Shown here: positions 13,290 through 15,208 of the stretch, one piece after another
How the letters are laid out: each line of letters opens with the position of its first letter
Position numbering within the stretch: position 1 is the first letter of the stretch
Assembly: GCF_001592965.1 (NCBI RefSeq)
Contig: NZ_LRPC01000012.1
Coordinates: 62,001 to 126,000, forward strand
Source: Roseivirga spongicola
GTDB taxonomy: Bacteria > Bacteroidota > Bacteroidia > Cytophagales > Cyclobacteriaceae
Reading direction: 5' to 3'
DNA: 64,000 nucleotides
Program-made: the position numbers and the translations under genes
Notes under the pieces: generated by a model
Databases searched by the model: none
Seen by the model: only the letters and a program-made list of their open reading frames with translations
Told to the model about the DNA's origin: nothing

Positions 13290-13364
13290 GGGCGCTTAGC
13301 TCAGTTGGTTCAGAGCACCTCGTTTACACCGAGGGGGTCGGGGGTTCGAATCCCTCAGCGCCCA
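13290..13364 (+). tRNA. tRNA-Val (anticodon TAC)
   Basis: A complete cloverleaf: acceptor stem GGGCGCT paired with AGCGCCC, D-arm GCTCAGTTGGTTCAGAGC, anticodon stem CCTCG/CGAGG around the loop TTTACAC with anticodon TAC, and T-arm with loop TTCGAAT. The discriminator base is A at 13364 and CCA is not encoded. There is no intron. It is followed directly by a terminator and by the GIY-YIG tandem array, whose units repeat the 3' end of this tRNA. Confidence 0.96.
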
Positions 13365-13367
13365 CAC

Positions 13368-13401
13368 AAAAAAAGCCAGTTCAAAAGATCTGGCTTTTTT
13401 T
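13368..13401 (+). terminator. Terminator of tRNA-Val
   Basis: Stem GCCAG/CTGGC (13375-13379 with 13390-13394), flanked by A-run 13368-13374 and T-run 13395-13401. It lies four bases after the tRNA. Confidence 0.85.
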
Positions 13402-13451
13402 ATGCTCTATAATTTGGTGTTTGTTTCCCTAGGCATAACTTCATTCTTGTT

Positions 13452-13736
13452 ATGCACACGCTTTATATTCTTTATTCAAAGGGCCTCGATCGATACTATG
13501 TCGGTGAAACTGAGGATTTCGATGTTAGATTAGAACAATATAATACAGGTTATTTCAAAGACTCATCAACATCAAATGCCAGTGATTGGGAAGAATATTT
13601 AACTGCATTTTGTCAAGATAGGTCTTATGCTAGGAGGGTTGAAATGTTCATCAAGAGGCAGAAGAACCGCGTTTTTGTAGAGTCTTTGAGGGGTGATAGT
13701 CAAAAGCTAGGTTCGATTATTAAGAGGTTTATGTAG
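13452..13736 (+). CDS. GIY-YIG nuclease-domain protein, array copy 1
   Basis: A 94-residue single-domain protein of the UvrC/URI-like GIY-YIG superfamily. The core is visible: TLYILYSK (GIY strand), RYYVGET (YIG strand, Y16-V-G18), the catalytic arginine R26 in VRLEQ, and the metal-binding glutamate E64 in RRVEMFIKRQK. These residues support an intact active site. The family cuts DNA, but the target here is unknown. This copy is the most divergent: it differs from copy 2 at nine residues, including Y30 where the others have H, and D37. The TAG stop is also the first base of the tRNA-like remnant. Confidence 0.9.
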   Translation: MHTLYILYSKGLDRYYVGETEDFDVRLEQYNTGYFKDSSTSNASDWEEYLTAFCQDRSYARRVEMFIKRQKNRVFVESLRGDSQKLGSIIKRFM

Positions 13737-13780
13737 GTCGGTGGTTCGCCCCGAAGCCTCGGGGCCCTCAGCGCCCACAC
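13736..13780 (+). repeat. tRNA-Val 3'-end remnant with inserted hairpin, copy 1
   Basis: GGTCGGTGGTTCG matches the tRNA T-arm (GGTCGGGGGTTCG). Then, where the tRNA has AAT, there is a 16-base hairpin (CCCCGA-AGCC-TCGGGG), after which CCCTCAGCGCCCACAC matches the tRNA 3' end and its flank exactly. The 5' half of the tRNA is missing, so it cannot be a functional tRNA. Confidence 0.85.
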
Positions 13781-13814
13781 AAAAAAAGCCAGTTCAAAAG
13801 ATCTGGCTTTTTTT
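13781..13814 (+). terminator. Array terminator, unit 2
   Basis: Identical to the terminator after the tRNA: A-run, GCCAG/CTGGC stem and T-run. It would end transcripts of GIY-YIG copy 1. Confidence 0.8.
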
Positions 13815-13864
13815 ATGCTCTATAATTTGGTGTTTGTTTCCCTAGGCATAACTTCATTCTTGTT

Positions 13865-14149
13865 ATGCACACGCTTTATATTCTTTATTCAAAGGGCCTC
13901 GATCGATACTATGTCGGTGAAACTGAGGATTTCGATGTTAGATTAGAACAACATAATACAGGTTATTTCAAAACCTCATCAACATCAAATGCCAGTGATT
14001 GGGAAGAATATTTAACTGCAGTTTGTCAAGATGGGTCTCATGCTAGGAGGGTTGAAATGTTTATCAAGAGGCAGAAGAGCCGCGTTTTTATAGAGTCTTT
14101 GAGGGGTGATAGTCAAAAGCTAAGCTCAATTATTGAGAGGTTTATGTAG
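13865..14149 (+). CDS. GIY-YIG nuclease-domain protein, array copy 2
   Basis: A 94-residue GIY-YIG protein of the same design as copy 1, with the YIL and YVG strands, R26, H30 and E64 retained. It carries T at position 37. It differs from copy 3 at seven residues (17, 24, 32, 37, 44, 57 and 94). The leader from the preceding terminator to the start codon is identical to that of copy 1, so both should be expressed alike. No domain besides the nuclease core is present, and no partner protein or DNA-binding domain is visible. Confidence 0.9.
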   Translation: MHTLYILYSKGLDRYYVGETEDFDVRLEQHNTGYFKTSSTSNASDWEEYLTAVCQDGSHARRVEMFIKRQKSRVFIESLRGDSQKLSSIIERFM

Positions 14150-14193
14150 GTCGGTGGTTCGCCCCGAAGCCTCGGGGCCCTCAGCGCCCACAT
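14149..14193 (+). repeat. tRNA-Val 3'-end remnant with inserted hairpin, copy 2
   Basis: Same design as remnant copy 1: T-arm-like GGTCGGTGGTTCG, the CCCCGA-AGCC-TCGGGG hairpin, then CCCTCAGCGCCCA. The flank reads CAT instead of CAC. Confidence 0.85.
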
Positions 14194-14226
14194 AAAAAAG
14201 CCAGTTCGAAAGATCTGGCTTTTTTT
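14194..14226 (+). terminator. Array terminator, unit 3
   Basis: A-run, GCCAG/CTGGC stem with loop TTCGAAAGAT, then a T-run. One A is missing relative to units 1 and 2, which explains the 412-base spacing. Confidence 0.8.
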
Positions 14227-14276
14227 ATGACCTATAATTTGGTGTTTGTTTCCCTAGGCATATCTTCATTCTTGTT

Positions 14277-14561
14277 ATGCACACGCTTTATATTCTTTAT
14301 TCAAAGGGGCTCGATCGATACTATGCCGGTGAAACTGAGGATTTCAATGTTAGATTAGAACAACATAATGCAGGTTATTTCAAAAAATCATCAACATCAA
14401 ATGCCAATGATTGGGAAGAATATTTAACTGCAGTTTGCCAAGATAGGTCTCATGCTAGGAGGGTTGAAATGTTCATCAAGAGGCAGAAGAGCCGCGTTTT
14501 TATAGAGTCTTTGAGGGGTGATAGTCAAAAACTAAGCTCAATTATTGAGAGGTTTGTGTAG
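14277..14561 (+). CDS. GIY-YIG nuclease-domain protein, array copy 3
   Basis: A 94-residue GIY-YIG protein. R26, H30 and E64 are kept. The YIG strand reads RYYAGET, with A instead of V before the glycine; this small change may be tolerated. Position 37 is K. The last residue is V rather than M. The frame is intact, but the V17A change in the core strand makes this the copy most likely to have altered activity. Confidence 0.88.
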   Translation: MHTLYILYSKGLDRYYAGETEDFNVRLEQHNAGYFKKSSTSNANDWEEYLTAVCQDRSHARRVEMFIKRQKSRVFIESLRGDSQKLSSIIERFV

Positions 14562-14605
14562 GTCGGTGGTTTGCCCCGAAGCCTCGGGGCCCTCAGCGCC
14601 CACAC
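14561..14605 (+). repeat. tRNA-Val 3'-end remnant with inserted hairpin, copy 3
   Basis: As in the other copies, but the T-loop reads GGTTTG instead of GGTTCG. The hairpin and the acceptor-stem half are unchanged. Confidence 0.85.
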
Positions 14606-14638
14606 AAAAAAGCCAGATCGAATGATCTGGCTTTTTTT
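14606..14638 (+). terminator. Array terminator, unit 4
   Basis: The stem is longer than in the other units: GCCAGATC pairs with GATCTGGC around loop GAAT. The T-to-A change extends pairing, which suggests the hairpin is maintained as a structure. Confidence 0.8.
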
Positions 14639-14688
14639 GTGCCCTATAATTTGGTGTTTGTTTCCCTAGGTATAACTTCATTCTTGTT

Positions 14689-14973
14689 ATGCACACGCTT
14701 TATATTCTTTATTCAAAGGGCCTCGATCGATATTACGTTGGTGAAACTGAGGATTTCAATGTTAGATTAGAACAACATAATACAGGTTATTTCAAAAACT
14801 CATCAACATCAAATGCCAGTTATTGGGAAGAATATTTAACTGCAGTTTGTCAAGGTAGGTCTCATGCTAGGAGGGTTGAATTGTTTATCAAGAGGCAGAA
14901 GAGCCACGTTTTTATAGAGTCTTTGAGGGGTGATAGTCAAAAACTAAGCTCAATTATTGAGAGGTTTATGTAG
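14689..14973 (+). CDS. GIY-YIG nuclease-domain protein, array copy 4
   Basis: A 94-residue GIY-YIG protein. The YIL and YVG strands, R26, H30 and E64 are retained. Position 37 is N. The otherwise invariant QKSR segment reads QKSH (R73H), and M65 is L. Whether the R73H change matters is not clear, since this arginine is widely conserved in short bacterial GIY-YIG proteins. It is the last full copy; the next unit has lost the gene. Confidence 0.88.
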   Translation: MHTLYILYSKGLDRYYVGETEDFNVRLEQHNTGYFKNSSTSNASYWEEYLTAVCQGRSHARRVELFIKRQKSHVFIESLRGDSQKLSSIIERFM

Positions 14974-15017
14974 GTCGGTGGTTCGCCCCGAAGCCTCGGG
15001 GCCCTCAGCGCCCACAC
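14973..15017 (+). repeat. tRNA-Val 3'-end remnant with inserted hairpin, copy 4
   Basis: Same structure as copies 1 and 2. It leads into the fifth, truncated unit. Confidence 0.85.
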
Positions 15018-15019
15018 AG

Positions 15020-15050
15020 AAAAGCCAGTTCGGAAGATCTGGCTTTTTTT
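15020..15050 (+). terminator. Array terminator, partial unit 5
   Basis: GCCAG/CTGGC stem with a shortened A-run (GAAAA) and a seven-T run. Similarity to the other units ends at 15069. The next 200 bases hold only a decayed GGGGTTCGCCCCGAG fragment (15158-15172) and the terminator of the following minus-strand gene. Confidence 0.75.
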
Positions 15051-15208
15051 ATGCCCTATAATTTGGTGTCGAGATTTTTGGCGATAACTACTAATACTTT
15101 TCAGGTACTATGAATTTCCTATTTAAGGGAGTCAATTATAAAAAGGCAAGTGGTTCAGGGGTTCGCCCCGAGATTCTCTTTAGTTTAAAACTGAAAAATA
15201 TGGGTATC

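Follow-up and report, generated by a model that had tools for sequence, protein, structure and literature searches.

Small GIY-YIG nuclease genes and hairpin-bearing tRNA copies at tRNA loci of Bacteroidota have the appearance of a self-amplifying genetic element of a kind not yet described

In a 64-kb stretch of the Roseivirga spongicola genome (contig NZ_LRPC01000012.1; the whole stretch is called the window below), the only tRNA gene, tRNA-Val(TAC), is followed by a tandem array of small genes for GIY-YIG nucleases, each accompanied by a partial copy of the tRNA. This arrangement raises the question of what the repeated unit is and whether its nuclease takes part in multiplying it. In comparisons of sequences within the genus, family, and phylum, the tRNA-linked nuclease genes and the hairpin-bearing tRNA copies beside them resemble a genetic element that amplifies itself and that has not been described before. 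We tentatively consider it quite possible that the window array belongs to a family of minimal elements that is spread across the Bacteroidota, resides at tRNA loci, and has a nuclease that promotes recombination.

Repeat units after tRNA-Val(TAC) and tRNA-Met(CAT)

Directly 3' of tRNA-Val(TAC) lie four direct-repeat units of 412-413 bp (start-to-start distances of 413, 412, and 412 bp), each consisting, in this order, of a terminator-like hairpin with a T run, a GIY-YIG gene of 94 amino acids, and a 3' fragment of tRNA-Val; a fifth copy of the terminator segment closes the array (Table 1). All four open reading frames (ORFs) match PF01541 above its cutoff (E 1.6e-9 to 3.5e-11), with the GIY-YIG domain at residues 1-73, and R26 and E64 are unchanged across the four proteins. 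The genes differ pairwise at 11-20 positions per 282 nt, so the four units are not identical copies from one very recent event. To this extent the preliminary description of the locus, which had listed the tRNA, the four units with their parts, and the two residues, is confirmed.

The same description had called the T-arm of each remnant damaged. A tRNA remnant is indeed present in every unit, but the change is not random damage. The fragment reads GGTCGGTGGTTCG / CCCCGAAGCCTCGGGG / CCCTCAGCGCCCAC (unit 3 has one base difference) where the intact tRNA-Val reads GGTCGGGGGTTCG / AAT / CCCTCAGCGCCCAC, from which it follows that part of the T-loop has given way to CCCCGAAGCCTCGGGG, an inverted repeat whose arms are perfect in each of the four fragments. 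Hairpins of this kind did not figure in the preliminary description.

A protein search of the R. spongicola genome returned the four window copies, one further good match (E 8.5e-13), and three weak ones. The good match lies ∼50 bp from tRNA-Met(CAT) and encodes a protein 38-39% identical to the window protein. At this second locus the tRNA is followed by a terminator, the GIY-YIG gene, a tRNA-Met 3' fragment that carries TCCCGATAGCTATCGGGA in its T-loop, a second terminator copy, and the truncated start of a further gene copy. The tRNA-Met and tRNA-Val loci share a plan; their tRNA and terminator differ.

tRNA linkage and copy number in genus, family, and phylum

Relatives were collected with sequence profiles, of which A1 is narrow (five proteins), A2 is broader, and A4 was built from Met-, Leu-, and Asn-linked genes. 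At E <= 1e-6, A1 matched 107 and A2 matched 163 of the 196 family genomes; in the phylum sample, A2 matched 242 of 395 genomes. A profile match alone is not yet a tRNA-linked gene. A scan of named relatives with A4 kept, as best-scoring matches, 80 of 313 relatives; the titles of 77 of these 80 are Bacteroidota, including Algoriphagus, Pedobacter, Flavobacterium, Psychroflexus, Salinimicrobium, and many metagenome-assembled genomes (MAGs), and the remaining three are MAGs labelled Chlorobiota, Ignavibacteriales, and 'Rickettsiales'. Family (A1), phylum (A2), and named (A4) matches are all the best-scoring ones, and the loci taken from them are not a random draw, as 20 family regions (E about 1e-16 to 1e-12) and 40 phylum regions were chosen by hand. 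Decayed nuclease copies with stops occur among the family and phylum matches.

Linkage was counted in 191 clusters selected by their GIY-YIG gene, after removal of duplicate clusters that had a 100-nt gene stretch in common. This set excludes loci that had been chosen for a tRNA or a palindrome (L044-L089 and L190-L199), L270-L306 stand outside the count, and one cluster of the hairpin-chosen locus L013, scored as 'none', is retained. A tRNA on the same strand lies within 500 bp in 150 of the 191 clusters (136 upstream and 14 downstream), no cluster has an opposite-strand tRNA alone within this distance, and 16 clusters are cut by a contig end. The linkage is strand-specific and short-ranged: a same-strand upstream tRNA was found at 0-250 bp in 126/173 clusters, at 250-500 bp in 17/167, at 500-1000 bp in 3/165, and at 1000-1400 bp in 1/157, and the corresponding opposite-strand counts in the four bins are 0, 0, 2, and 0. 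Nineteen isoacceptors are represented among the linked clusters, led by Met (35), Asn (30), Ala (14), Val (13), Asp (12), and Gly (10); the Met and Asn counts are probably inflated, because the A4 scan is biased to Met, Leu, and Asn. The association of a GIY-YIG gene with a tRNA end, and with it the idea of a minimal self-duplicating unit, is strengthened by these counts.

Tandem arrays are common at these loci. Sixty of the 191 clusters hold at least two genes, at a median spacing of 390 bp, and in arrays of at least three, consecutive genes are 68-100% identical, with five tRNA-Asp-linked genes at 99-100%. Of the 98 linked clusters in an earlier set, which included tRNA-chosen loci, 72 have a far-side copy of the linked tRNA (12-nt anchor, at most one mismatch), and in the other 26 none was found. 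At a minority of loci the intact tRNA comes last and the unit lies on its 5' side, in the order of upstream-region copy plus tRNA 5' part with a D-arm hairpin, nuclease gene, upstream region, and intact tRNA; examples are L183 and L151 (both Asn) and L124 and L138 (both Met). Hairpin-bearing copies flank the intact tRNA on both sides in L169, and in L112, L148, and L178 tRNA fragments stand at a nuclease gene without an intact tRNA.

Two further loci show repeated fragments. In L163 (Flavobacterium sp. 14A), 5' and 3' fragments of tRNA-Asn, many of them hairpinned, are repeated around an intact tRNA and a single nuclease gene. In L027, nuclease-free 3' fragments of tRNA-Met recur at 153-bp spacing ahead of a full tRNA-Met unit, and these repeats are possibly non-autonomous derivatives.

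Copy number varies at one orthologous tRNA. Of the 19 genus loci at tRNA-Val, 14 are assessable, meaning that 1.4 kb downstream of the tRNA is available, and five are cut by a contig end (in two of these the profile detected a gene start). Four full units (the window), three, two, and one unit are found in one genome each, one further genome has a fragment, and nine have none, although L058 and L059, two of the nine empty loci, retain traces of a tRNA end or terminator. At the level of species, this is a presence/absence polymorphism at a fixed site, as expected of a homing endonuclease gene, with 0-4 full units. The 5' flank matches that of the window over at least 400 bp in 16 of the 19 loci (window included), among them six of the nine empty ones; in L052 and L054 the match extends over only 44 and 81 bp, and L056 has no match at all. 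The two-unit and the fragment-only genomes have a 3' flank in common (77% identity). A one-off amplification in this strain is ruled out, as the gene is also present in relatives, where it lies next to tRNAs and forms arrays.

The sequence of tRNA-Val is identical in 18 of the 19 genus genomes, whether the gene is present or absent, and inspection by eye shows an uninterrupted junction of tRNA and terminator whether a locus is empty or filled. Because empty loci retain terminator-like sequence directly after the tRNA, we take the terminator to be the tRNA's own, duplicated with the unit. An insertion that disrupts the tRNA 3' end is ruled out by the preserved junction, and the proposal of the preliminary description that the nuclease cuts near the tRNA end and so promotes insertion there, as at integrase sites, is not supported by these loci. 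Insertion at the 3' end also leaves unexplained the 5'-side units, with their duplicated promoter region and tRNA 5' part.

Nuclease lineages are tRNA-specific. On a FastTree tree of the 191 nucleases, which was read without regard to branch support and whose single branches are not to be trusted, tRNA identity (150 labelled tips) requires 39 changes, compared with at least 96 (mean 102) in 100 shuffles. Ten genomes carry genes at more than one kind of tRNA, and 21 of the 22 genes concerned are closer to a gene at a tRNA for the same amino acid in another genome than to the other gene of their own genome. The tip order of the ladderised tree groups 11 of the 12 Leu-linked genes (GAG, CAA, TAA), all five Pro-linked genes (CGG, TGG, GGG), and the three Ser-linked genes (TGA, GCT). 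Host family leaves a signal as well: label changes number 24 for host family (38.6 shuffled) and 21 for tRNA (41.6) in the phylum sample, and 9 (14.1) and 11 (24.0), respectively, among the named loci. For the ratio of nonsynonymous to synonymous substitution rates (dN/dS), five pairs gave values of about 0.05-0.14 (dS >1 in two of them), one gave 0.44, and four gave no computable value; at the level of sequence, the nuclease is under purifying selection.

These data bear on whether the protein is needed at all. The array could have grown by passive duplication, in which an ordinary UPF0213-like host repair gene settled behind tRNA promoters in the distant past and unequal crossing-over at repeated tRNA ends multiplied it with the protein uninvolved. 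The repeats of tRNA end and terminator, tens of bases long, could support unequal exchange, the lineages that are largely tRNA-specific also partly track host family, and purifying selection is compatible with a host function. However, presence after one tRNA in one genus is patchy, 19 isoacceptors and both sides of the tRNA are used, and decayed copies with stops and hairpins in tRNA copies are unexpected for a plain host gene. We regard this explanation as unlikely. Unequal crossing-over as such, which the preliminary description had offered as the simpler alternative, can explain the growth of arrays but not the hairpins or the tRNA-specific lineages.

The location of tRNA-specific lineages at tRNA genes, which are common attachment (att) sites, would also fit a unit that guards such a site, with the nuclease directed against integrative elements that carry the same tRNA end in attP and the hairpin-bearing copy serving as a blocked site. 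The 5'-side units do not match 3'-end att sites, and the host tRNA would bear the same target, unaltered, which makes this proposal very improbable.

Hairpins within the tRNA copies

Inserts were sought in the flanks of every tRNA as sequences with an exact 8-nt match to that tRNA at either end, with no requirement for palindromy, at loci that included tRNA- and palindrome-chosen ones. The tRNA anchors yielded 193 distinct inserts, and a reversed-tRNA control yielded 6. Perfect stems of 6 bp or longer are present in 160 of the 193 (3.6 in shuffled inserts), making hairpins the predominant insert. The 160 hairpin inserts comprise 120 distinct sequences, which rules out a single fixed sequence motif. 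In 150 of them a portion of a loop is removed (mean 127, maximum 140 in 200 trials of random placement), and T-loop positions are the most frequently replaced.

A core of CCGA(N1-8)TCGG is found in 136 of the 160 hairpin inserts and is missing from 24, such as TCCCGCCAAAGGCGGGA and TCCGTTAGCTAACGGA. The pair adjoining the core is Watson-Crick in 131/137 inserts and the next pair in 132/135, with C-G, T-A, G-C, and A-T pairs all represented. The hairpins at tRNA-Val within the genus (CCCCGAAGCCTCGGGG, CTCCGAAGCTTCGGAG, CTCCGAGGCTTCGGAG, TCCCGAAGCTTCGGGA, and CCCCGAAGCTTCGGGG) vary jointly on both sides in their outer pairs (CTCCGA..TCGGAG, TCCCGA..TCGGGA, CCCCGA..TCGGGG), and in one genus genome the acceptor part is decaying while the hairpin arms are still complementary. 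Full or near-full tRNA copies with hairpins in place of two or three loops occur in L025, L022, and L017 (all Thr) and in L043 and L158 (both Leu).

Some of these copies reach into annotation or coding sequence. In L090 (2347-2416 and 2751-2820), two ARAGORN calls of 'tRNA-Cys(GCA)' are arrayed copies of tRNA-Lys in which a TCCCGACTTGCAAAGTCGGGA hairpin replaces the anticodon arm, and annotations may contain other false tRNA genes of this kind. The nucleases of L103 and L106 end in ...LAQLVRVPHVRD or similar, translated from the tRNA copy and hairpin.

We considered whether the hairpin-bearing copy acts as RNA, by giving the nuclease mRNA a tRNA-like end through which its processing or stability is controlled. 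The putative nuclease transcript would include the fragment, which has a stable predicted fold (z -4.73 for the fragment with the next terminator and -2.19 for the fragment alone; the unit 1 terminator, 13366-13410, gives -5.65). In 129 inserts, however, the stem cells comprise 747 Watson-Crick, 5 G/T, and 22 other combinations, so no tolerance of wobble pairs is seen among the 774, in a set that was pre-filtered (4 or more Watson-Crick pairs out of 6) and trimmed in favour of Watson-Crick pairing. With that filter bias, the rarity of G/T fits selection on DNA rather than RNA, and RNA-level selection on the hairpin is unsupported. The copy also stands either 5' or 3' of the gene and includes different arms. 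A role as RNA is accordingly improbable in our judgment.

The nuclease and a candidate amplification mechanism

The nuclease is, by sequence, a member of the GIY-YIG superfamily with the catalytic Tyr, Arg, and Glu in place: Y5, Y16, G18, R26, and E64 are invariant in the five A1 proteins, and in a 52-row alignment (A5) Y5, Y16, G18, and E64 are invariant and R26 is found in at least 90%. An AlphaFold2 model from the 52 aligned sequences has a predicted local distance difference test (pLDDT) score of 94.7. Foldseek against the PDB placed UPF0213 BH0048 first (E 2.6e-3), along with HIGLE and Slx1, with I-TevI at rank 9, and a profile search gave UPF0213 EF2693 (E 9e-4) and, more weakly, Slx1 and UvrC; profiles of ncbifam, phrogs, and padloc gave weak partial matches only. 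By profile and modelled fold, the enzyme resembles UPF0213 (YhbQ-type) and Slx1, the nearest solved structures, with which it has the conserved Tyr, Gly, Arg, and Glu of the GIY-YIG region in common. Activity of Slx1 on branched DNA is stated in PDB titles, and Slx1 works with Slx4. To our knowledge, UPF0213 and Slx1 nucleases have not been known as tRNA-linked, arrayed, or tRNA-specific. An origin in phages or plasmids is unsupported as far as viral contigs, phage records, and plasmids were searched: no relatives were confirmed in viral contigs (profiles A3 and A4), and tblastn gave no match for the window protein in 50,697 phage records or for the L005 protein in plasmids.

The unit, as we propose it, is a small GIY-YIG gene with a partial or whole extra copy of the neighboring tRNA locus, either the tRNA 3' part and terminator or the promoter region and tRNA 5' part. 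One to three loops of this copy are replaced by DNA hairpins, so that it looks dead as a tRNA, and the intact tRNA is kept at the other edge. At the tRNA copies, the nuclease would cut or nick either the hairpin once extruded or an intermediate of recombination, and homologous-recombination repair between the repeated tRNA-terminator stretches would then copy the unit, giving tandem growth, gene conversion, and homogenised copies. Rarely, a unit would be seeded at another tRNA of similar sequence. With an indispensable tRNA as its neighbor, the unit would gain expression, from the tRNA promoter or by read-through, and a conserved location in every host.

A precedent makes the amplification step plausible. 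SegB, a GIY-YIG nuclease encoded beside tRNA genes of phage T6, is reported to promote tandem amplification of a segment containing tRNA and nuclease, with microhomology linking the tRNA to the end of the gene (PMC13096335). SegB is a free-standing GIY-YIG homing endonuclease of T-even phages and is like the window element in that its gene adjoins tRNA genes. The Bacteroidota units differ from it in that they lie in bacterial chromosomes, their extra tRNA copies are hairpinned and dead-looking, and their protein folds are nearest to UPF0213 and Slx1.

The palindrome itself was followed as the exact 14-mer CCGATAGCTATCGG, which is present in 97 of the 196 family genomes in up to 77 copies. It occurs in 89 of 163 A2-positive and in 8 of 33 A2-negative genomes (89/74/8/25; odds ratio 3.8, with phylogeny not corrected). 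The genome with 77 copies (G160) has only two A2 matches. The hairpins could instead be an independent dispersed palindromic repeat that enters spare tRNA copies, with the nuclease a fellow traveller or beneficiary. In favor of this are the eight genomes with the palindrome and without an A2 match, one of which has 21 copies, and the sites inspected by eye, 9 of 12 of which had no tRNA context. The co-occurrence with the nuclease above expectation argues against it, as do the paired changes by which the arms of the genus tRNA-Val hairpins stay complementary and the 24 hairpin inserts that lack the core. We consider an independent repeat possible but doubtful, and it can be compatible with the self-amplifying unit that we prefer.

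A number of observations weigh against such a self-amplifying unit. Besides the palindromes at sites without tRNA context and in genomes without an A2 match, including G177 of the same family (21 copies, no match at E <= 1e-6), the exact 14-mer is missing from 74 of the 163 A2-positive genomes. Among the inserts, 33 of 193 lack a 6-bp perfect stem (of the 25 listed, some are near-hairpins and others are not), and the excess of loop targeting over random placement is only moderate (150 versus 127 of 160). Short tRNA 5' fragments with D-arm hairpins lie just upstream of intact tRNA-Asn in L077 and tRNA-Lys in L086, with no nuclease gene within the 3-kb locus, and 25 of the 191 clusters have no tRNA within 500 bp. 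The clustering of host families on the nuclease tree means that much of the inheritance may be vertical, and the unchanged intact tRNA gives no visible sign of self-protection of the tRNA gene. Among the window copies dN/dS is 0.4-0.8, on 11-20 differences, and no Foldseek match reached E 0.001 or better. The comparisons are confined to Bacteroidota-centred samples: a search centred on the genome of an Ignavibacteriales-labelled MAG gave matches identical to many of those in the phylum sample, so it seems to have covered that sample again rather than to have reached outside the phylum. That the nuclease cuts, what it cuts, and that the unit transposes are matters we infer from sequence.

The units share some features with known small and tRNA-associated elements and differ from them in others. 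Rickettsia palindromic elements and repetitive extragenic palindromic (REP) sequences are short palindromes inserted in genes or spacers at many places, whereas here palindromes replace tRNA loops in duplicated copies beside a nuclease gene. Elements that tyrosine recombinases insert at tRNA 3' ends have the tRNA 3' end repeated at the far side of the insert; the present unit, in contrast, is about 0.3-0.5 kb, has no integrase, carries a hairpin-disrupted repeated end, and also exists on the 5' side of tRNAs. The GIY-YIG gene is the only gene called within the window unit, and a Pfam scan of six ORFs flanking the array identified a TonB receptor, FecR, an extracytoplasmic function (ECF) sigma factor, a glycosyltransferase, a radical S-adenosylmethionine (SAM) protein, and one unmatched ORF. 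The absence of an integrase or transposase, claimed in the preliminary description, thus holds for the unit and these six ORFs, the rest of the window having been outside the scan, and the unit does not qualify on this basis as a transposon or integrative element. The only repeat noted in the unit is the tRNA end with the terminator, terminal repeats and target-site duplications not having been systematically searched.

Table 1. Features of the tRNA-Val(TAC) array, in window coordinates
Feature	Position	Strand	Basis
Intact tRNA-Val(TAC)	13290..13365	+	ARAGORN; identical in 18/19 genus genomes including the window's
Terminator-like hairpin with T run, copy 1	13371..13402	+	Repeat comparison, folding
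GIY-YIG gene, unit 1, 94 aa	13452..13736	+	ORF, PF01541, alignment
tRNA-Val 3' fragment (T-arm and acceptor strand), unit 1	13736..13778, hairpin CCCCGAAGCCTCGGGG 13749-13764	+	
Terminator-like copy 2	13784..13815	+	Repeat comparison
GIY-YIG gene, unit 2, 94 aa	13865..14149	+	ORF, PF01541, alignment
tRNA-Val 3' fragment, unit 2	14149..14191, hairpin 14162-14177	+	
Terminator-like copy 3	14196..14227	+	Repeat comparison
GIY-YIG gene, unit 3, 94 aa	14277..14561	+	ORF, PF01541, alignment
tRNA-Val 3' fragment, unit 3	14561..14603, hairpin 14574-14589	+	
Terminator-like copy 4	14608..14639	+	Repeat comparison
GIY-YIG gene, unit 4, 94 aa	14689..14973	+	ORF, PF01541, alignment
tRNA-Val 3' fragment, unit 4	14973..15015, hairpin 14986-15001	+	
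Terminator-like copy 5 with ∼20 bases of unit leader, array end	15020..15069	+	Repeat comparison
Possible decayed older fragment end, weak	15150..15171	+	82% over 22 nt; contains GGGGTTCGCCCCGA

No description of tRNA-linked GIY-YIG genes in Bacteroidota appeared among the matches listed in the open full text of PubMed Central (PMC), subscription journals and preprints being outside this scope, and the letters CCCGATAGCTATCGGG had no match there. Any novelty of the element is thus relative to the open PMC literature. It may, in a fuller form that we put forward with considerable doubt, be a new class of selfish element confined to tRNA loci, in which a structure-selective nuclease uses spare tRNA copies as recombination hot spots armed with hairpins of the element's own making, and which amplifies in place, converts its neighbors, and spreads phylum-wide among similar tRNAs (e.g. 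Leu, Pro, or Ser isoacceptors).

If the proposal is true, small nuclease genes tied to particular tRNAs would be present in much of the Bacteroidota, as a minimal mobile element whose single gene has about 94 codons. One class of tRNA pseudogenes and of false tRNA calls would thereby be explained, and there would be a test system for the way in which palindromes and a structure-selective nuclease might drive tandem amplification in bacteria, with the tRNA-specific lineages as a natural set of variants for learning what the enzyme recognizes.

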